A stretch of 64,000 bases of DNA from assembly GCA_937925685.1 (NCBI GenBank), contig CALAMI010000010.1, positions 310,001-374,000 on the forward strand, given 5' to 3'. This document shows, one piece after another, positions 31,658-61,756 of this stretch; position 1 is the first letter of the stretch, and every line of letters starts with the position of its first letter. The position numbers and the translations under genes are program-made. Source of the DNA: Candidatus Binatia bacterium. GTDB lineage: Bacteria; Desulfobacterota; Binatia; HRBIN30. The notes under the pieces are model-generated. The model was given only the letters and a program-made list of their open reading frames with translations, did no database searches and was not told where the DNA came from.

Positions 31658-31989
31658 GGTTGGTGCATTAACAAAGCTCCGTTAGCCTTGTCACCCAAAA
31701 GGCCGAACACGCTCCAAAGCTCGGTTGCGTGCTCTAGCGTTCCTCTCCAGCCGCAGATCGTCTACCTTTTTCCAGAGTTAGATTGGGACGGGCGCGGGTG
31801 TGGGGACGTCGCCCTAAGCTAACGCCTTCAGCGGCCACGAAGTTGAGAACTCTCTTGACTTTGCCGCCCTGGACCGCCCGGAGAGTTTGCGCTTTTCCGG
31901 TGTTTCCCCTTGGTCCCCCGGGCCAACTGATGCGAGGGCGACCTTGGGCAGTTGTGTCATGGACGTGCGACGCCTACAAGCCGTCGGCC
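31658..31989. other. Intergenic region before the membrane glycosyltransferase-like gene
   Basis: Divergent promoter region of the panE-like and membrane protein genes. The plus-strand reading frame is open from 31783, but that part lacks family features and a good start. I see no clear promoter or RNA. Confidence 0.35.
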
Positions 31990-33702
31990 ATGGCGAAGCG
32001 CCGGAAGCCATCGGCCTCTTTCCGAAAATCGCTTGCTCACGCTGTCGCCCTGACTGCGGTCTTCGCGGCTGCTTTATGCCTGCGCCTCGTGTACATCGAC
32101 TCGATCCACACCAGCCCAAGCGCTCGGGTGCTGCAGACAAATGCGCTCCGCTACCATCTTTGGGCGCAGGCAATTCTTGATGGGAACGCCCCACCTCCAC
32201 CCTTCGATCAGCCGCCAGCATACGCGTATTTCCTAGCTGCAGCGTACTGGTTCGCTGGCAACGCAAGTCCAGAAGTGGTTCGGCCGATCCAAGCGGTTCT
32301 CGATGCAGTCCACTGCGTGCTTCTGGCTAACCTGGTCGCCCGCAGCGGCCTGCCCCTCGCCTCGGTGTGGTTCACAGGTTTGCTAGCTGCCGTCTATGGG
32401 CCGTTTATCTTTTTCACCGGGGAAATCCTGCCCGCCTCCATCTCGCTCCTGCTGCTCGCTACTGCCGTAAACGCCTGTTCCGAACAACGCTGGCTTGCGG
32501 CCAGCGTCCTGTGGCTGTTAGCAACCTTATTTCGTGCCGAGCTTTTACTTCCCTTAAGCCTCTACGTCGCTTGGCTCTTTTTCCGCGGGAACGGCTCCAC
32601 TGCCAGGCAACTCGGCACTGTCGTTGTTGTCGGGTGGCTGGTGGCCACCGTCGCGGTCAGCATCGCGGCGCGCCGGATCGTACCATACACGAGTGGTCTC
32701 GGTCTTAACCTCTGGCTGGGCAACAACCCTTATGCCGACGGTGTCAACCCATTTCCGCCAGCACCCCTACAGGCTGCAGTCGAGCGCGCCCGCACAGCCT
32801 TGGCGAACGACGTGGTGAAACTTGACCGGTGGTTCTTGAGTCAGGCTATCGGGTTTTGGAGAGAATACCCATGGGAAGCGTTGCGGCTGACCTGGAAAAA
32901 GTTCCGCTGGACCCTAGTTGATCGCGAACTCCCGAATACCGGGGATGTGACTTGGCAGCAAGGTCACAGCTGGCTCTTCCGGCTCCCTTTCTTCCCACTT
33001 TCTTTTGGAGCTTTGCTTTGTCTTGGTTCGGGGGGTCTTGCCGTCAGCTTGCGGCGGTACCCGTGGTCGCGCACCTTTGGCCTTCTGGGGATTGTCGCGC
33101 TCAGTACCCTTCTTACGTGTACCATGTTTTTCACCAACGGCCGTTTTCGCTTACCTCTCGCACCGTTTCTCTTGTTCGCGGCGGCTCATCTTCCTGCCTT
33201 GCTCACAGGGGAACGCTGGGCTCGGAACTTACGTCCACATCTACCGACGGTTCTAGCAAGTATCGCTTTTGCATCGTGGATTGCGTTTGCCAATCCCTTC
33301 AACGTAAAAAATTACTACGTTCCGGCCCTTGTCACAAACGCTGGAATTGCCGAACGCCTCGCCGGTCGACCTGACAAAGCCATTGCTCTCCTCGAACGGG
33401 CGCTCGCGTCCGCCCGCGAAGACGATTTGGCATGGAGCCATCTAGCCTTGGCACGAGAGCAAGCCGGAGACCTTGCTGGTGCCGCCAATGCGTATCTAGA
33501 CGCTCTCACCTTCGCACCGCACTCCTCCGACCTACGTGCCCTCGCTAAAGACTTTTGCGCGCGACACGGCATAGACGACCACTGGATCGATCACTGGACC
33601 GCGAGTCCTTCTCCCACGGAGCGGCTAGCCACCCGCGTGCGCATTCTCCAAAGTTTCCACGCCCCGCGCGGCGCAACCGATTCCTCGCGAAGCGTCGACT
33701 GA
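31990..33702 (+). CDS. Membrane glycosyltransferase-like protein with C-terminal TPR
   Basis: About 570 residues. A basic N-terminus (MAKRRKPSASFRKS) leads into ~9-10 hydrophobic segments up to residue ~450. The first periplasmic loop has YHLWAQAILDGNAPPPPFDQPPAYAYFLAAAYW, a layout typical of GT-C glycosyltransferases of the ArnT/PMT (GT39/GT83) type, which use lipid-linked sugars. The last ~110 residues contain TPR-like helices (AIALLERALASAREDD, AANAYLDALTFAP). Donor and acceptor are unknown. ATG 31990 was chosen because it places the charged residues directly before the first membrane segment; longer starts exist. Confidence 0.65.
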   Translation: MAKRRKPSASFRKSLAHAVALTAVFAAALCLRLVYIDSIHTSPSARVLQTNALRYHLWAQAILDGNAPPPPFDQPPAYAYFLAAAYWFAGNASPEVVRPIQAVLDAVHCVLLANLVARSGLPLASVWFTGLLAAVYGPFIFFTGEILPASISLLLLATAVNACSEQRWLAASVLWLLATLFRAELLLPLSLYVAWLFFRGNGSTARQLGTVVVVGWLVATVAVSIAARRIVPYTSGLGLNLWLGNNPYADGVNPFPPAPLQAAVERARTALANDVVKLDRWFLSQAIGFWREYPWEALRLTWKKFRWTLVDRELPNTGDVTWQQGHSWLFRLPFFPLSFGALLCLGSGGLAVSLRRYPWSRTFGLLGIVALSTLLTCTMFFTNGRFRLPLAPFLLFAAAHLPALLTGERWARNLRPHLPTVLASIAFASWIAFANPFNVKNYYVPALVTNAGIAERLAGRPDKAIALLERALASAREDDLAWSHLALAREQAGDLAGAANAYLDALTFAPHSSDLRALAKDFCARHGIDDHWIDHWTASPSPTERLATRVRILQSFHAPRGATDSSRSVD

Positions 33703-33875
33703 ATCAAGCCGTCGACTGGTGTCGGGGCTCGACTCGTTCCTGGACCTCTCCCATCGTAGTCAGTGGAGTCCGTTCCTAAACGGGAGCGTAAAATCCCCCT
33801 TGCCAAGAAGTCGCCACTTGCGATATGGCCAAGCCGTAGTGCTCTAAGAGCAAAAACTGGGGAGGGACGAGAGGC

Positions 33876-34805
33876 GTGAAACACGCACGAAAAGTGGTGA
33901 GCATTTTCGTTGTTGCGGCTTTGTGGATGGTAGCGTTTCAGCGGATTCACGCAGAGCCTTGTGACCCCAATGACCCTCGTCTGTTGAAACCGGATCTGCA
34001 AGCACTGCCCCCAACGCGTGCTCGAGTGGTAGAACGCCAGGGTGCACGGCGACTTTACTTCACGACCAGAATTGGCAATTTTGGGAAGGGCCCACTGATC
34101 GTTGAAGGGAAAACCATCAATACCCCGTTCGGCCCAGTAACCAAGGCCACGCAAATCGTACAACGGAGCGACGGAACGACTTGCAGCAAAGACGCCGGTA
34201 GCTTCGAGTTTCACAAGAGCCACAATCATTTCCACGTCAATGACTTTGCTGAATACCTGCTTCGCAAAGACGATCCTTACAACGGACCCATCGTAGCGCG
34301 AGCGAGCAAGATTTCCTTTTGCCTTTCTGACATCGAGCCCCTTCGCGGCTTGTTCGATGGAACCCGTCAGGTATTCGCTAATTGCGGAGTGCAGGAAGGG
34401 ATTCAGGGTATTTCGCGGGGCTGGGCTGATGTCTACGACGACTTCTACCCCGAGCAATTAATCGAGTTAGACGTTTGCCGCACCGACGGCGGTGTGCCGC
34501 CCGGCCAATATTACCTCGTTAACGTCGCCGATCCCTATGACCTCTTGCTCGAGGAACGTGAAGATTACGCTTCCAACGCTGGCTTCGTCCCGGTGACGGT
34601 TCCCCCGCGCACCGGAAATTTCCCGGTACCTCGAGACCCGAGCTGCCCTGAGCCCCCGGCGCCGACTTCGACTCCAACTGGTATTCGACCCACTCCCACA
34701 GCGACGCCGCCTCCGGTGATCAATCCGCGCCCGACACGAGCACCGCGACCTGCTAGGCCAACTCGGCCACCACGCCCTCCGCGGCGCCCTGGTCCGCACG
34801 GTTGA
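33876..34805 (+). CDS. Secreted lysyl oxidase-like copper amine oxidase
   Basis: 309 residues: signal peptide (1-~26, VVSIFVVAALWMVAFQRIHA), a lysyl oxidase domain (~35-235), and a Pro/Thr- then Pro/Arg-rich tail (~250-309). The copper motif is HKSHNHFH (His113, 116, 118, 120), aligned with the HSCHQHYH of animal LOX. Lys145 in SKISFCLSD and Tyr187 in WADVYDDF fall where LOX has the Lys and Tyr that form the lysyl-tyrosylquinone cofactor. It should therefore be an active amine oxidase exported from the cell; the target is unknown. GTG start with GAGG nearby. The basic proline-rich tail could bind the cell surface. Confidence 0.8.
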   Translation: MKHARKVVSIFVVAALWMVAFQRIHAEPCDPNDPRLLKPDLQALPPTRARVVERQGARRLYFTTRIGNFGKGPLIVEGKTINTPFGPVTKATQIVQRSDGTTCSKDAGSFEFHKSHNHFHVNDFAEYLLRKDDPYNGPIVARASKISFCLSDIEPLRGLFDGTRQVFANCGVQEGIQGISRGWADVYDDFYPEQLIELDVCRTDGGVPPGQYYLVNVADPYDLLLEEREDYASNAGFVPVTVPPRTGNFPVPRDPSCPEPPAPTSTPTGIRPTPTATPPPVINPRPTRAPRPARPTRPPRPPRRPGPHG

Positions 34806-34897
34806 GCTAGCTCGAGCACCTCGAGCTGGTGTTTCTCCTTCAGCGAGGGGCGTGCAAATGGGTTGTCTCACCGGAAACAGACCCTAAGCTGCTGACG

Positions 34898-35635
34898 GTG
34901 ACTGCCGTTATCTTAGCTGCTGGCAAGGGAAGGCGTTTAGGACCACTCACGAAGAACTGCCCCAAACCACTTCTGCCCGTTCGCTCCAGGCCTGTCATCG
35001 AGCACATTCTCCTAGGCATCCGTGCTGCTGGTATCGAGAAAGCTGTCATTGTGGTGGGTTATTTGGGTGAACAAATTGTTGCCACTCTGGGCTCTGGCGG
35101 CAGAATCGGAATGGAGTTGGCTTACGTATGGCAAAACGAGCCCCGCGGCACGGCAGACGCGGTGCTTTCCGTGCGGGGTTTTGTTTCCGAACCATTTCTG
35201 CTCTCGTGGGGTGACGTGCTTATGTCCACGAAAAACTACCCGGCACTCCGGGAAGCGTTTGCGGCAATGCCGGCTGCCGCGTGGATTGCCGTGAATCAAA
35301 CCGACGACCCGGCGGCCGGAGCCGCAGTGTACTTCGATGCAACAGGAAGAGTGCAGCAAATCGTCGAGAAGCCCCCGCCAGGGACCTCAACGACGCATTG
35401 GAACAACGCAGGGGTGGGAATTTACTCTCCAAGCGTTTTTGCGTACGCGGAACGAACCCCGACGTCCCCACGTGGCGAGCGAGAACTCACCTCTGCGCTG
35501 AACGCCATGGTTGCCGACGGGCACCTGGTTTACGCGCTGCCAGTAGTAGGATTTTGGAGCGACGTAGGCACGCCAGAAGCCCTTGCCTGGGCAGAACAGC
35601 ACTTTGACGATCCATCTTCATGTACCCTGATCTGA
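34898..35635 (+). CDS. Sugar-phosphate nucleotidyltransferase
   Basis: NTP-transferase of the RmlA/GlmU-N type, making an NDP-sugar from a sugar 1-phosphate. VTAVILAAGKGRRLGPLTKNCPKPLLPV is the nucleotide-binding signature. Also visible: LLSWGDVLM (metal Asp), NNAGVGIYSPSVF, and FWSDVGTPEAL. About 245 residues, no C-terminal acyltransferase repeat. The GTG at 34898 gives the canonical N-terminus; the frame is open further upstream. Its last 16 bases overlap the galactokinase-like gene, so the kinase product may be its substrate. Confidence 0.82.
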   Translation: MTAVILAAGKGRRLGPLTKNCPKPLLPVRSRPVIEHILLGIRAAGIEKAVIVVGYLGEQIVATLGSGGRIGMELAYVWQNEPRGTADAVLSVRGFVSEPFLLSWGDVLMSTKNYPALREAFAAMPAAAWIAVNQTDDPAAGAAVYFDATGRVQQIVEKPPPGTSTTHWNNAGVGIYSPSVFAYAERTPTSPRGERELTSALNAMVADGHLVYALPVVGFWSDVGTPEALAWAEQHFDDPSSCTLI

Positions 35636-37005
35636 ACCCTATATCGTGGCGCAGCCTTTTGGATCGCGAACGCGAGCGAGTGGCTACTCTGGTAAAACAG
35701 TTTCGCATGCAATTTTGCCAGCCTCCGCAGTTCGTCGTTTTGGCTCCCGGACGAATCAACTTGATCGGCGAGCATACGGACTATAACGGTTATCCTGTAC
35801 TCCCAGCTGCAATCGACCGTCACGTGGCCGTCGCAGTTGGCTCGCGAGCTGATTCCATCGTGCAAGCTCGTACGTCTGCCCCGGGGTTAGCTCCTTGCAC
35901 GTTCGTCCTCGAAGGACGCCTGCAGCCAGGCCCGAGCGGCGACTGGGGAAACTATGTCAAAGCAGCCGCACAGTTACTGTGCGCCCGCGTCAGTGCCCCC
36001 AAAGGAGCCGACATCCTCGTGGACGGCACGGTTCCAGTTGGTGCAGGCCTTTCCTCGTCTTCTGCCCTCGTTGTGGGTACTGGCCTAGCGCTCTTGCTAT
36101 CAGCTGGGATCTCCGACCTTTCGCGCTTTGCCCTTGCAGAAGAATTTGCCAGCGCCGAGCAATTTGTGGGAACCCTGAGCGGTGGGATGGATCAAGCCTG
36201 TTGCCTCCTGGCGGAGGAACAAGCAGCTTTACGCATCGATTTCTTTCCTCTTCGGGTTCGATCGGTGCCTTTCCCTTCCGACTACCATATCGCCGTTTGC
36301 CATAGCCTGGTCAGAGCGGAAAAAGCCGGTGCTGCCCGCACAGCCTACAACCTACGGGTGTGGGAATGCAGCGTGGCGGCACGCGCTGTCGCTTTTCTTC
36401 TCGGTGACCACGAACAAGCCTTGTCGATCGATCGTCTAGCGGATCTTGAGCGTCATTTTCCCTCACAGCCCCGGGCATCATTCCTCGACCTGCTAACGTA
36501 TCACCTCCCGGATCGCCCCATGCCTATCGACGAAATCGCAAGGCTGCTGAACGCAAACGTGGAGTCTTTGATGCCTCGGTCCCGAAAATACGCCCCGCCG
36601 CTTGACACTCCGCTGCAGCTCCTACGGCGTGCCCGCCACGTATTCTCGGAAGCCGATCGTGTAGAGAGCGCCGAAGCAGCTCTCCGTCTCGGGCAAGTAG
36701 ACAGCCTGCACCGTGCCATGCGGGCGTCGCACGGGAGTTGTCGGGACGACTACGAAGTCAGCTGTCCCGAACTCGAAACCCTAGTCGATGCAGCGATCAC
36801 GTGCGGCGCCGTGGGTTCGCGTCTCACCGGGGCTGGCTTCGGTGGGTCTACCGTCCAACTCGTGCCCACGAACAAACTGCCGGAGTTTTTTGAAAGGATC
36901 GACCAACTCTTCTATGCGAGGCAGTTGCCAGGCGAACGAAACTTTGCTGACTATCGCTTCGCGTTTCGACCAAGCAGTGGTGCCAAGGTTATCGCGATCG
37001 ATTGA
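35620..37005 (+). CDS. galK: Galactokinase-like GHMP sugar kinase
   Basis: ATP-dependent C1 sugar kinase of the GHMP superfamily. The galactokinase signature GRINLIGEHTDYNGYPVLP (~residue 45) is followed by VPVGAGLSSSSAL (ATP loop), GGMDQACCLLAE (catalytic Asp region), and GSRLTGAGFGGSTV (motif 3). 461 residues, longer than E. coli GalK (~380). ATG overlaps the nucleotidyltransferase end. Galactose, or an acidic or deoxy sugar handled by related kinases, could be the substrate; no Leloir galT or galE is in the window. Confidence 0.82.
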   Translation: MYPDLNPISWRSLLDRERERVATLVKQFRMQFCQPPQFVVLAPGRINLIGEHTDYNGYPVLPAAIDRHVAVAVGSRADSIVQARTSAPGLAPCTFVLEGRLQPGPSGDWGNYVKAAAQLLCARVSAPKGADILVDGTVPVGAGLSSSSALVVGTGLALLLSAGISDLSRFALAEEFASAEQFVGTLSGGMDQACCLLAEEQAALRIDFFPLRVRSVPFPSDYHIAVCHSLVRAEKAGAARTAYNLRVWECSVAARAVAFLLGDHEQALSIDRLADLERHFPSQPRASFLDLLTYHLPDRPMPIDEIARLLNANVESLMPRSRKYAPPLDTPLQLLRRARHVFSEADRVESAEAALRLGQVDSLHRAMRASHGSCRDDYEVSCPELETLVDAAITCGAVGSRLTGAGFGGSTVQLVPTNKLPEFFERIDQLFYARQLPGERNFADYRFAFRPSSGAKVIAID

Positions 37006-48641: not shown

Positions 48642-51512
48642 TCAGTCGGCGTAAATGTCCAGGGTCAGGCTGGCAATGTTGTCCGTGGGATTGCGATCAC
48701 CCGAGGGTCCTAGCGCCTCCAAAACCAAGGTGCATCTGAAGGGGCTGCGGGAAGAAGCTGCACCAATGTCCTGTCGACGAATGACGATGGGTAACTTGGC
48801 AAAACGGCGGCGGCGGTTGGGAACAATAACCTTATTGACGGGCAAAACGCCTGGCCGGTGGAACCAGGGCAAGCCTGCGGTCCCAGTGGGACAGTCGCCG
48901 TCCGCAACTACGAGGGTGATGGCGTGACCCGCGACATCAAGCCGATCCGCATTGGCCACACCAACACGCACGTGTCGCGTTATGATGTCCTGACCGCCTC
49001 TTAGGCGCAGCCGTCTCGGCGGAACGGAGAGAGCCACCGACTGATGGCTCTGCTCGACCCAGGGCTCTGCGGCGTTCGTTACGTTCACCTCCATCACCGT
49101 GCTATTATTCCAAGGCGTGGGGTCCTGGTTGCCTGTCGTTTGCGCAGTCGCCGCCAACAAAACACGACACCGGTAAGGAGACAAGCCCGTGGCTGTGTTC
49201 GCAAGAGGCAGTGGGTCAACAACGACTTCGACAGTCGCGTGCAGCGCTTTGCCAATCGAAACGGATGTTCCCGCCTGATTCCCCGGCTGGCTAGGATCGA
49301 GATCCACCGCCACCGCTACCGAGCCCTGCAAACAATCCGATGCCAAAATAGCCAACTCAACGGGAACAGCGTCTTCGTCCGCCGTTTTTACCTGCCGAAC
49401 ACGCGTGGATGCTCTCACAGTCGCGGGAGTTTGGTCTTCGAGGCGAATGTTCACCGGGCGGATTGGGTCCAGAATGATGTCGACACGTGTTCGGGGCGTT
49501 GGTGTGACCGTTGGAGTGGCCGTTGGCGAGGGTGTCCACGTCGGGGTGCGCGAGCGTGTAGGGGTGGGGGTGAACGTTCGCGTTGCCGTGAAAGTTGCCG
49601 TCGGCGTGGTGGAGGGAGTCCTTGTTGGAGTCGGCGATGGTAACCAGGCCGTCCCTACGGGCGTGAGCGTGGGCGTCGGCGACACCTCTGGCGTCGGGCT
49701 CATGGTAGCGGTCGGAGAGCTCAACGGCGAACAGGAATCTTTAGGTTCCGGGGGGCAACCTAAGTCTGGTACACATGGTACGCAGTGGGCAGCCGGGTTG
49801 CACGATTCGATGCGGCACCGGGGAGAACAACCATCGCAGCCTAGCTGATTCCCGTCGTCACATTCCTCTGGGTAGCGTAGCTGGGCGTCTCCGCACTGGG
49901 TGCAGGGAGCGAGACACTCCACCGAATCTACGTCCTCGCACGCTGGGAGAGCTCGCAAGATCGGTAAGGGTAAAACACCACCAACGCGAATGCGAGGAGG
50001 AACCCCGTTCAAATGCGTGACAGTGACAGAGCCATCGACCCCCGCGGCCGTCGAACGCTGACAATTGACGGTACCATCGATCCTTACCGTCTCGTGACCA
50101 ACGATGTTGACTACCCCACCCCCTCCCCCACCACGGGCGAACACACGGCCCACCGAACCAATGTGCACCGCACAAGCACCGAACTTGACTTCTCCGCCCA
50201 CGCCACACTCCCCCGCCTCACAACCGCCACCAGATGCATCCACCGTCCCTGTGACGGTAAGGTTGGCCGTGGCCACTCTTCCGTCTGTTTCCTCCCCCAC
50301 CGTCAGCTTCACTTCACCACCGCTTCCCCCGGCCGACCGCCCGCGGCTATCGATTCCCCCGTTGATGACAATGCCCTTACTGCCCGTGAGTTCGACGTCT
50401 CCACCATTGGATCCACCACTTGCATCGATCAATGCGTCGCTTACCAGCTCCCAACCGGCAAAGATTCCTATGCTGCCGCCATTGCCATAAGCTCCTTGGG
50501 CGCGCGCCGACACGACCCGCGACACCCTCACCGACCCGGCGACGTCGGCCGTGACGTCTCCACCCACACCATCAGGCTCAGCTCCTTCCGCGAGAATAGA
50601 CCCGTCGATCACCAAGCCACCATAAGCCACATCGATCTCGACCTCTCCGCCGTCGCCGCCTTCGGCATATGCCAGGGAACTTCCCTGGGCACGAATTCCA
50701 CCGCTGATGTAAACTCCCCTGTAACCTTTTAACACAATCGAGCCTCCACCACCGGCCGCACCGGTTCCATTGGCACGCAGCCATGCAGCTGCCAACCACC
50801 CGCCTGCATCCAAGATGATACGGCCACCGTCGCTACCGTTGACCAAGATCTGTCCCTCGACCGAAACGTCCTCGCTCGCATCTAAAACAATCGTTCCCCC
50901 GCCGCTGGCAGACTGCGCTCCACCGGTCGCCGAAAGCTCGGCAGACGAGGAGAAGCGGATGCTGCCGCGACTCTCGATCCGGATGAACCCACCCCCGCCA
51001 CTGGAGGTAAGGTGACCCGCTAGGACGCGCCCCTGAACTTCGACCGAACCACGGGAAACGATCTCCACAGTCCCCCCTGACAAATTGCCCGAAGCATCGA
51101 TGCGTGCCCGCGGAGAGCCGCCCTCCACGACCACAGGGCCCCCAATTTGCAGGCGGATCGCCCCACCGCGATTCGTCGGCGGCTCCGACCCTTGCCCCCG
51201 TGCGTCAATCATGGTTCCACTGCGAAGAACGAGACTCCCCGCGATCACCTGCGCGCTGCGCCAGCCCACCACCAGCCGTGCCGTGCCCTCCAACACCACC
51301 GGGCGCGACCCAAAGTCCAACACGCACCGGTCTCCCACAAGGTGCGTGCCACGAATCACACATACCCCACTGAGCGTGCACGTGGGTTCGCGCATGGCGA
51401 CATCGTTCGCCGTACACGTGGTCTGGGATTGCACCGCTGCCGCAAGGAGCGTCGCAACGCACGCCGCGAACCAAAACAACATGCTATATTCTGCGATATA
51501 CAAGTTACACAT
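48642..51512 (-). CDS. Giant exported protein: beta-helix, Cys repeat, Pro/Thr linker
   Basis: About 956 residues. After a hydrophobic N-terminal segment ([16 protein letters not shown]) come ~450 residues of short Gly-rich repeats (GGxxxIDASGG, GGEVxxxVG types) that look like a right-handed beta-helix. Next is a Cys-rich module (~535-585) with [16 protein letters not shown], the 'myxo-disulfide' repeat, then a Pro/Thr-rich linker (~597-675) and a ~280-residue C-terminal domain. Start is uncertain: ATG 51512 or 51482, and the frame opens at 51647. Likely surface-exposed adhesin or matrix protein, by analogy. A paralogue lies at 59159-61756. Confidence 0.7.
49490..49725 (-). repeat. Pro/Thr low-complexity coding repeat
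   Basis: Encodes the linker of the giant exported protein ([18 protein letters not shown] types). On the plus strand it reads as GTxGGxGT-like runs. It is a degenerate repeat within a coding region, not a microsatellite. Confidence 0.75.
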
Positions 51513-51722
51513 GTCAAGCTGTTGTAAAGCCACTTTTGCCCTTCTCTGCGCCCGCCGACCATGTCGCTGCGCCGGCTGATTTCTAGCCACCGTGACAACA
51601 ACGGACCCGTCACAGCAAGGCGTGGCGCCAATCCATTTCCCTGACAACAGCTAGACATCGCACCACCGCTCGGCCGGCCAGGGCTACGGCCTGACGCTCT
51701 CTAAAACGTAACGCGACGCCAT
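51513..51722 (-). other. Upstream region of the giant exported protein
   Basis: An AT-rich island just at the likely start holds TTGACATGTG (-35-like) and TATATC. The spacing is 12 bases, too short for a standard promoter, so I do not call one. Otherwise nothing recognised. Confidence 0.3.
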
Positions 51723-59158: not shown

Positions 59159-61756
59159 TCACGGCTCGCATGGCTGCAGGCCCAAAGCAACGCCGACCGC
59201 TCGGACGATCTCGTCGATGCTGATCTCACCATCGCCATTCGCATCCCCAGCCAAGCACTGGTCAACACCGACCACACCTAAAGCGATGTTGACCATTTGC
59301 ACCAACTCATCAATGGTAACCTCACCGTCCGATCCGCAGTCGCCCACGCACGTGCTCGACGCCGCAGTTGCCGTGGGACTCACCGTGGGCACCGGTGAAG
59401 GGGTTGGGCTCGGCGTTGCCGTATTGGTGTTGGTTTGGGTTGGCGTGATTGACGGGGTGCTACTGGCTGTCATGGTTGCAGTGGCAGTAGCGGCAGCGGT
59501 GGCAGTGGCCGTGGCCGTTACCGTGGCAGTCGCAGTCGTAGTGGCCGTAGCAGTGGCCGTACCGGTTGGGGTGGTGGTGAAACTTGCCGTCGGTGTTGCC
59601 GACGAACTTGGAGACGGCGTTGGCGTCATGCTGGGGGTCGGAGTGGGGGTCCATGTCGCGCTTGAGGTAAACGTTGCGGTGAGCGTGGGGGTTGCAGTAG
59701 CCGTAAGGGTGGGCGTAGCGGACGCGGAAAATGTCGGGCTCGGGGTCAGTGTGAACGTAAAGGTTGCTGTTATCGTTGGCGTCGGAGTTGGAGTAGCTGG
59801 CGGTGCGGGCGTTGGCGTGCTTGTAGGAGTGGGCGTCGGTGCGTCCGGGCAAACGGCACAGCCAATTTGCGCATCGCATGCCACGTTCCCGGGACAAAAC
59901 TCCGGCGGCGGGCAGCTTTCCTGCCGGCAGGCGAAGCTACAGCCATCGCAATTCAAAGCGTTGCCATCGTCGCACTCTTCGGGGAATTCTACCCTGCGAT
60001 CGCCGCAAGTAGGGCAAGGGAACAAACAATCTTCGCTCGGATCCAGCCTTGTACAGAGGGGGAGGGGATTCAGTATCGGGGTCGGTCGCACCGAGTTTGT
60101 CGCCAAGGTTGGCGGCGTTGAATTCGGGTAAAACAAGCTGACGCTGCCGTCCACCCCAGCAGCCGTGGTTTTTACCGCAGTCACGACGCCGCTCACCTGA
60201 AGTCTCTTGCGCGCCGTAAGCCGGTGCGCTCCCCCTGCTTCCGGCCCGTTGGAGTTGACCCGGCCGTTTGCGGCAACCACGAGCTCGCACGCTTCCAAAT
60301 CAGTCGTTCCTCCTTCGCCGCAGCCCTCCGGACCACATGGGCCTCCGGTGACGCTCAGTGTATTGGCAACGGTGAGATTTCCGATCCCTCCGTCGCCCGC
60401 GAGCATTTCCACGTCGCCACCAGTGGAAGCTCTGCCTCGCCCGCTGACATCGATCGGCGCATTCAGCACAATGTGGCGTCCGGCGACGACCTGAAGGCCA
60501 CCCCCCTCCAAGCCGCCGCTTGCATCGATCGCCACAGCCACCTGCGACGACGTGATGACGTCGCGCGTTGCTGAAAACGCAATCGTACCTCCAGTCGCAG
60601 CGCTGCCGTTTCCCCGCGCCGATACAGTCTTGCCCGCAGAAATCGTGATGTCACCGTTGGCGGAGACGTCAATGTCCCCTCCATCTCCGTCCGGTTCCCC
60701 GCCCTCGAGACGAACATTGGCGTCAAACACCACGTCACCCAATAACGTCTCCACCGAGAGCGAACCGCCTTCGCCTCCAACGGTCTGGCTTCCTGCCCCC
60801 ACTGCAGTAACGACGCCAGCAAAAGCGATTCGTCGCCCGGCCAAAACGCTAATCGTTCCGCCGCTGCCTGCATCGCTCCCTGCACCATTGGCGTTGATGC
60901 TCCCGAGAGCGATTTCGCCGCCCGCAACTACATCGAGCGTACCGCCGTTGCTTCCACGAACCTCGATCACGGTGTTCGAAGCTAAGGCGATGTTGCCCCT
61001 AGCCTCCAATGTGATTTCTCCCCCTCCCCGGGCACCTGAGCTGCCACCGGCAGCCAGAATCTCCGTCAACGGAATGCTGTTCGAGGACAGGTTCCTCCCA
61101 GCGGTTACCGTGATCTTTCCTCCGTCTGCCTCCGCCTTCAGATTACTCGCTGTCAACACTCCGTTGAGGCTCACATCGCCCGCAGCTTCGATGTGGATCA
61201 CCCCGGCGGCATTATTTCCTGAAGCATCGATGCGTGAACGGTTGTTGGACACACCTTGCAGATCCACAGAGCCGGAAGCACGAATTCGCACGGTTCCGCC
61301 GTTGACCCCTCGCCCCGAATTCCCCGTTCCCTTAGCGTCAATGGACGTACCAGGGACCATAGTGAAGTTTGCTGCCAAAATGGTCAGTTCACCCGAGGCC
61401 ACGACAAACTTACTGCCAGAGCCCAAGGTGACGTTTCGGCCAGAGAAGTCGAACGTACAAGGAGCTGCCGTAGGTACTTCGTACGTTTTCGTAATGATGC
61501 AATTGCCGCTTGGTCCGCAATTCGGTTCTTGCCCAATGATGTCGGTGGCGGAGCAAGCGGGAATTGCTTGCGCTTCCCAACTCGTCGCCACCATCGCTGC
61601 CACTGCGATGACCGCAGCGAGGAGCTGCCTAGCGGAAACCGATGGGCGTGCACCTTTCGCGCCAAGCACGGTGCCCCAAGACGGACCCGTGTCACCCAAC
61701 CCCGCAGAGACCCTTCGCCACGGGCTATCCTGTGGAGGCCCTTTTGCGAGGCTCAC
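59159..61756 (-). CDS. Giant exported protein: beta-helix, Cys repeat, Pro/Thr linker, EF-hand end
   Basis: 865 residues with the same order of parts as the 48.6-51.5 kb protein: signal peptide (~43-65, LLAAVIAVAAMVATSWEAQA), ~450 residues of Gly-rich beta repeats (IDASGxxxGG type), a Cys module with [16 protein letters not shown], and a long Pro/Thr-rich linker. Instead of the ~280-residue C-terminal domain it ends in a paired EF-hand, dockerin-like module (~805-862): GDCGSDGEVTIDEL and GDANGDGEISIDEI. GTG start overlaps the hom stop (GTGA); GTG 61669 is an alternative. Probably a calcium-dependent surface protein, by inference. Confidence 0.72.
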   Translation of the reverse strand: MSLAKGPPQDSPWRRVSAGLGDTGPSWGTVLGAKGARPSVSARQLLAAVIAVAAMVATSWEAQAIPACSATDIIGQEPNCGPSGNCIITKTYEVPTAAPCTFDFSGRNVTLGSGSKFVVASGELTILAANFTMVPGTSIDAKGTGNSGRGVNGGTVRIRASGSVDLQGVSNNRSRIDASGNNAAGVIHIEAAGDVSLNGVLTASNLKAEADGGKITVTAGRNLSSNSIPLTEILAAGGSSGARGGGEITLEARGNIALASNTVIEVRGSNGGTLDVVAGGEIALGSINANGAGSDAGSGGTISVLAGRRIAFAGVVTAVGAGSQTVGGEGGSLSVETLLGDVVFDANVRLEGGEPDGDGGDIDVSANGDITISAGKTVSARGNGSAATGGTIAFSATRDVITSSQVAVAIDASGGLEGGGLQVVAGRHIVLNAPIDVSGRGRASTGGDVEMLAGDGGIGNLTVANTLSVTGGPCGPEGCGEGGTTDLEACELVVAANGRVNSNGPEAGGAHRLTARKRLQVSGVVTAVKTTAAGVDGSVSLFYPNSTPPTLATNSVRPTPILNPLPLCTRLDPSEDCLFPCPTCGDRRVEFPEECDDGNALNCDGCSFACRQESCPPPEFCPGNVACDAQIGCAVCPDAPTPTPTSTPTPAPPATPTPTPTITATFTFTLTPSPTFSASATPTLTATATPTLTATFTSSATWTPTPTPSMTPTPSPSSSATPTASFTTTPTGTATATATTTATATVTATATATAAATATATMTASSTPSITPTQTNTNTATPSPTPSPVPTVSPTATAASSTCVGDCGSDGEVTIDELVQMVNIALGVVGVDQCLAGDANGDGEISIDEIVRAVGVALGLQPCEP
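59360..59850 (-). repeat. Pro/Thr low-complexity coding repeat
   Basis: Encodes the ~165-residue Pro/Thr/Ala-rich linker (TPTPTS, TATATATA types) of the EF-hand-ending protein. Codons alternate so that the plus strand reads as Val/Gly/Ala runs. Confidence 0.75.

Follow-up and report, generated by a model that had tools for sequence, protein, structure and literature searches.

A lysyl oxidase-family protein with aligned copper and quinone-cofactor residues in an uncultured Binatia lineage

Introduction

Lysyl oxidases (LOX) of prokaryotes have been reported since 2015, when a survey, in the part of its text drawn on here, described LOX in five bacterial groups (PMC4448552). In the case of the archaea, the available portion of the report on HTU-LOX presents this protein as an active amine oxidase whose activity is raised by Cu2+ and which is sensitive to BAPN (PMC6452851). 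Given these two reports on prokaryotic LOX proteins, finding a LOX in a bacterium is no novelty as such. The same part of the 2015 survey gives the first histidine of the copper motif (human H289) as absent from bacterial sequences, and cites work according to which copper binding does not need this residue (PMC4448552). For human LOXL2, the section of a review used here names H626, H628 and H630 as the copper ligands, and K653 and Y689 as the precursors of the lysyl-tyrosylquinone (LTQ) cofactor (PMC10532419). A literature search for lysyl oxidase together with Binatota or Binatia found no paper in the collection searched.

Here we analyse a LOX gene located in the window, a stretch of 64,000 nucleotides from a Candidatus Binatia bacterium, and thereby extend the prokaryotic lysyl oxidases to a further, uncultured lineage. 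Its features are collected in Table 1.

Table 1. Features of the LOX gene, its surroundings in the window and the copper-less LOX loci (window positions unless another genome is named)
Feature	Coordinates	Strand	Basis or remark
Lysyl oxidase (PF01186) gene	33876-34805	+	309 aa, single open frame, GTG start
Hydrophobic export signal-like N-terminus, residues 1-26	33876-33953	+	model helix 2-24; predicted
Copper motif HKSHNHFH, residues 113-120	34212-34235	+	phmmer alignment to LOXL2
K145, opposite LTQ lysine (LOXL2 K653)	34308-34310	+	alignment
Y187, opposite LTQ tyrosine (LOXL2 Y689)	34434-34436	+	alignment
Pro/Thr then Pro/Arg-rich C-terminal tail, residues 247-309	34614-34802	+	composition
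Hydrophobic, apparently polytopic protein with C-terminal TPR, upstream syntenic neighbour	31783-33702	+	Pfam TPR; synteny
Sugar-1-phosphate nucleotidyltransferase, downstream syntenic neighbour	34829-35635	+	domain matches; synteny
Galactokinase-family GHMP kinase, downstream syntenic neighbour	35620-37005	+	domain matches; synteny
Two long Cys-rich-repeat, PT-linker proteins	48642-51647, 59159-61756	-	myxobacterial-type repeats
Copper-less LOX locus L045	7990-12018 (G003)		one protein, two LOX domains
Copper-less LOX locus L046	1894-4819 (G004)		one LOX domain

Results

An earlier note on this DNA had described the gene product as a lysyl oxidase-like protein, and had aligned its HxxHxHxH motif (113-120), K145 and Y187 with the corresponding residues of animal LOX. 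The family assignment is borne out by Pfam, by the alignment to LOXL2 and by the fold of an AlphaFold2 model, and phmmer reproduces the residue alignment; the protein is thus confirmed as a member of the lysyl oxidase family with its copper and LTQ residues aligned. Firstly, Lysyl_oxidase (PF01186) is its sole Pfam match (33.8 bits, cut-off 20.4, E 3.4e-8); Pfam found no SRCR domain, and NCBIfam gave no match at E <= 0.01. Secondly, a phmmer search against PDB sequences returned one relative at E <= 1, human LOXL2 (5ze3, E 0.0033). In this alignment, HKSHNHFH lies opposite HDCHRHYH, K145 opposite the lysine of KASFCL, and Y187 opposite the tyrosine of CWDMY. H116, H118 and H120 pair with 5ze3 chain positions 309, 311 and 313, K145 with 336 and Y187 with 372, positions that an offset of 317, inferred from the histidines, turns into H626, H628, H630, K653 and Y689. 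H113 is aligned to the extra first histidine of the motif. Given the histidine frequency of 16 window genes, HxxHxHxH is expected by chance 0.000135 times per 309 residues. The histidines of the protein are at positions 3, 25, 113, 116, 118, 120 and 308, and the four of the mature domain (27-246) all belong to the copper motif. The cysteine set of the LOXL2 catalytic domain is not matched: of the six cysteines that LOXL2 has in the aligned region, just two lie opposite a cysteine (C149 and C170), and the other four face S115, P155, W183 and E193. The two LOXL2 cysteines opposite C149 and C170 form a disulphide in that protein.

A GGAGGG box lies 9 nt 5' of the GTG start, as read from the sequence. 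No promoter-like site was found in 33500-35000, and at 34806-34830 there is one terminator-like site, against a mean of 1.8 in shuffled sequences, from which no conclusion on an operon is drawn. As for the signal peptide claimed in the earlier note, the hydrophobic N-terminus is there, with residues 2-24 forming a hydrophobic helix in the AlphaFold2 model, whereas export itself is predicted; the cut site is presumably before EPC. The LOX domain extends to about residue 246, and the 63 residues of the tail that follows it (247-309) include 24 prolines, 10 arginines, 8 threonines and no lysine.

The AlphaFold2 model, built from a 19-row alignment, has a mean pLDDT of 86.6 and a pTM of 0.73. At E <= 0.001, Foldseek matched it only to the two chains of 5ze3, a structure of the LOXL2 precursor (E 1.4e-8); the query-based TM-score, 0.41, is modest, and the rmsd is 5.1. 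In the VIA structural comparison, 5ze3 scored Z 15.3 with 2.4 A over 167 aligned residues at 26% identity, and the next row was a CARDB domain at Z 8.4; CARDB and factor XIII domains, which match as beta-sandwiches, were discarded as relatives. The predicted structure is that of a LOX catalytic domain. Whether a structure-based alignment would set K145 or Y187 away from the cofactor site had been named as a check; both residues are placed at the site by the sequence alignment together with the fold, and not by distances. We consider it likely that the window gene encodes a secreted and active amine oxidase of the Cu/LTQ type, irrespective of the amine on which it acts.

Of the relatives with a name, the protein of bacterium HR30 (L002, G002) is the closest. 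It is 84% identical in the alignment and 83% by tblastn, and it has the same tail end and the same neighbours up to the end of its contig, with no difference of note. NCBI taxonomy lists bacterium HR30 under unclassified Bacteria; we take it to belong to Binatota/Binatia. Orthologues are present in two genomes of the same genus, G001 (83%) and G002 (86%), and, as a partial sequence, in G004 (66%), and more distant LOX relatives at 45% were found in G003 and G007. The LOX frame on contig 152 of G004 is identical to L003, which is labelled Myxococcota in the tree; genome-search taxonomy puts G004 in the window's own family.

In what follows, "class" refers to the class assigned by genome search. 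PF01186 matched 4 of 395 genomes sampled across the phylum, all four in the window's class, and it found 19 of 58 relatives; both searches missed the genome of the window gene, G000, despite a match at 4.5e-8 in a separate search. Because PF01186 missed G000 and other divergent members, we used a 19-row profile (A2) for the counts. This profile has matches in 32 of 148 class genomes at E <= 1e-3, or in 29 when the weak partial matches of G010, G513 and G518 are set aside.

Comparison of the three orthologues within the genus gives 89-93% identity and dN of 0.042-0.075 for the domain; dS, at least 2.48 or saturated, is so high that dN/dS ratios are rough. The tail is 79-82% identical at the amino acid level, and the signal region 19-31%, a rough figure given that an ATG further upstream served as the start of the G001 frame. 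Within the genus, the LOX domain and the tail are clearly under strong purifying selection.

There is also a second LOX-like gene in G000 (L080, about 8330-8801 of contig 43), of which two frames match around the histidine motif, the rest of the domain being unmatched; an intact relative, with a frame of 347 aa, is present in G001.

The residues were surveyed in 36 distinct class LOX domains that reach 70 bits or more against the 19-row profile. Five weak or partial hits (about 20-43 bits), including the broken second gene of G000, were left out, and a second match in G495 is not among the 36; L078 covers only the tyrosine region, so that histidine and lysine counts are out of 35. The lysine is kept in 35/35 domains and the tyrosine in 36/36, and the three copper histidines in 31/35. 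The four domains from which two of the three copper histidines are missing all retain both lysine and tyrosine. Since they are kept in copper-less domains, lysine and tyrosine alone are weaker evidence than the earlier note assumed, and their conservation may be partly structural. One of these proteins, L016 (G020), has the sequence GTGHVRPLV with two copper histidines lost and keeps the lysine and the tyrosine; it lies on a different branch of the tree from the three copper-less domains described below.

The first histidine, H113 in the window protein, is present in 7 of 35 domains, each of them from a member of the window's order. Since the window gene and its orthologues make up four of these, the seven are not independent cases. 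The window-order set is an exception to the absence of this residue from bacteria as published in the 2015 survey, and this histidine is thus not confined to animals and ichthyosporeans.

In the copper-less domains of G003 and G004 the motif reads GAHWRY, GGHWSY and GQHWAY, with only the H118 position kept, and the positions of the lysine, C149, C170, D185 and the tyrosine are kept in all three. These domains form a clade (100/96) in a tree of 35 domains, nested in a nine-row clade (99/99) together with the copper-type domains from G003 and G007 and with the window group. The copper-less clade and the window group join at a fork supported by 93/85, short of the tool's star, under a midpoint root. 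A haem c-like CxxxxCHG motif precedes each of the three domains. In the part before the LOX domains, Pfam found no significant cytochrome family (one match at E 0.29 in G004, none in G003), and by NCBIfam the G003 protein reaches a sub-threshold 17.7 bits against a dihaem cytochrome family whose cut-off is 313.3. Modelling of the G004 protein gave a structure of low overall confidence (mean pLDDT 57.9), with 10-residue means of 24-60 before residue 170 and better values in the LOX part.

The next gene, 21 bp downstream in G003 and 13 bp in G004, encodes a hydrophobic Fer4_5 and 4Fe-4S protein with TPR repeats, the domain make-up of which could be read as NapH/NosR-like. The two iron-sulphur proteins are 57% identical, and with the G004 protein as query at E <= 1e-20, and at most ten candidates per genome scored, they were found in just G003 and G004 of 145 class genomes. 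Since these two genomes belong to one family, the link between the iron-sulphur gene and the copper-less LOX may reflect a single inheritance. A MauG-like partner beside the copper-less genes was also considered and rejected, the neighbour being the Fer4_5/4Fe-4S protein.

This arrangement suggests a putative redox unit, in which electrons would pass between a LOX-derived domain on one side and haem plus an iron-sulphur chain in the membrane on the other. Taken further, the copper-free proteins, each forming a two-gene unit with the iron-sulphur protein, might be quinohaem-type amine dehydrogenases that arose from the window subfamily, in which the Lys-Tyr quinone would form without copper at the usual site and electrons would pass to haem instead of O2, the window enzyme representing the copper-dependent ancestor type; we regard this scenario as unlikely. 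In these domains the lysine and the tyrosine may be kept for structure. Copper-less relatives that keep both residues are natural tests of their role without a copper site.

The same relatives bear on whether the window protein itself could be a metal-binding pseudo-oxidase of LOX fold, devoid of LTQ and with a structural or copper-binding role. The persistence of the lysine and the tyrosine in copper-less domains, which indicates that they may be kept for other reasons, is in line with such a role, as is the Pfam score of the window protein (33.8 bits, versus up to 130 in other members). However, the three copper ligands, the lysine and the tyrosine are all kept in the window protein, in G001, in G002 and in the partial G004 orthologue, and the strong purifying selection within the genus also argues against a pseudo-oxidase, which we consider unlikely.

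In G000, G001 and G002 alike, the TPR-bearing hydrophobic protein is followed by LOX and then by the sugar-1-phosphate nucleotidyltransferase, whose gene is cut by the contig end in G002. In G004 the LOX frame meets contig ends: its start lies on one contig with JAB, ketopantoate-reductase-like and TPR-bearing genes, and its end on another with nucleotidyltransferase, galactokinase-like and APH-like genes, the two pieces presumably being halves of one gene. The LOX regions of G003 (contig 17) and G007 have 0 of 12 compared window neighbours in common. Because these regions share no window neighbour, the context gives no firm functional partner, and a fixed genetic partner of the LOX gene was rejected. 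The product of the upstream neighbour is, at a guess, glycosyltransferase-like, and that a nearby enzyme glycosylates the PT-rich tail is only an idea.

The earlier note had also likened the tail to the linkers of the giant surface proteins of the window. The likeness stands in so far as the LOX frame ranks third in the window for proline plus threonine per 60 residues (33, versus 39 and 38 in the two long PT-linker proteins), but it does not extend to the Arg-rich half, which is peculiar to the LOX protein. No other copy of the tail was found in G000 at E <= 0.001, and a shared sorting tail was rejected on this ground. Auto-cross-linking through the tail was likewise rejected for the window LOX, because the tail contains no lysine.

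Fusion of LOX domains to linkers does occur elsewhere: in family f4 (L004-L007, from G009, G011, G012 and G013) the LOX domain is C-terminal in frames of 761-775 aa with repeated PTRTP-type linkers, and thus some LOX domains of the window's order are joined to linker-rich proteins. A different extension is seen in L044 (8538-10217, G003) and L048 (7013-8738, G007), where a Pro-rich stretch is followed by an extra C-terminal region with SQxRxTWYDxLGxD; the two regions are alike (39% over 129 aa), that of G007 lying partly in another frame.

Lysine-rich surface proteins had been proposed as the substrates to look for. In this respect the two long proteins with PT linkers disappoint: they contain 11 lysines in 1001 residues and 10 in 865 (1.1-1.2%), versus 2.41% over 16 window genes, LOX included, which makes them poor candidates for lysine-rich substrates, although their few lysines could be enough for cross-linking.

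The question of the substrate leads to an alternative that overlaps with the explanation favoured here and differs from it in the substrate alone, namely that the enzyme, an active Cu/LTQ amine oxidase, has small amines or amine-bearing antibiotics or peptides as its targets, for nitrogen supply or detoxification, and not structural proteins. HTU-LOX is described as broad in its specificity, accepting taurine, glycine, aminoglycosides and polymyxin (PMC6452851), and the 12 compared neighbours include no obvious lysine-rich partner product, the long PT-linker proteins being lysine-poor. On the other hand, the conserved basic tail points to tethering, for which a scavenging enzyme would have no necessary use, and the genes that stay next to LOX in G000, G001, G002 and G004 include some for sugar activation, not for known amine metabolism. 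We see oxidation of small amines as possible but rather doubtful.

Discussion

The reading we prefer, an active secreted Cu/LTQ amine oxidase, would involve the following steps, in which we infer copper binding, LTQ formation and amine oxidation from the family. After export, H116, H118 and H120 would bind one copper ion; copper and O2 would then convert Y187 to a quinone, which would couple to K145 to give LTQ. The mature enzyme would oxidise primary amines to aldehydes, with release of H2O2 and ammonia. The amines oxidised would probably be those of lysine residues in proteins of the envelope or the extracellular space. The aldehydes could then condense into cross-links, and the basic Pro/Arg tail would probably tether the enzyme to the envelope or matrix; a lysyl substrate and tethering by the tail are put forward with less support than the chemistry. 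That the window LOX cross-links exported proteins, as the earlier note had suggested, is a possibility that we hold tentatively. If it does cross-link envelope proteins, LOX-based hardening of a matrix would have a bacterial example.

Comparison with the described systems places the window protein as follows. With human LOXL2 and LOX (PF01186; 5ze3) it has in common the fold, the HxxHxHxH motif, the LTQ lysine and tyrosine, and a cysteine pair. In contrast to LOXL2, to which it is 26% identical, it is without four of the six cysteines and without SRCR domains by Pfam, and, in a further difference, its Pro/Arg-rich stretch is C-terminal. HTU-LOX of Haloterrigena turkmenica, compared here by description and not by sequence, is likewise prokaryotic and is described as carrying the family residues and a signal peptide of hydrophobic nature; there, a segment before the domain lowers activity about fifteenfold (PMC6452851), whereas the N-terminus of the window LOX is short and its tail C-terminal. 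The bacterial LOX set of 2015, as far as the available text of that survey goes, shares with the window protein a simple architecture, the copper histidines and the LTQ residues, and is described as being without the first histidine, whereas the window LOX has H113 at this position (PMC4448552).
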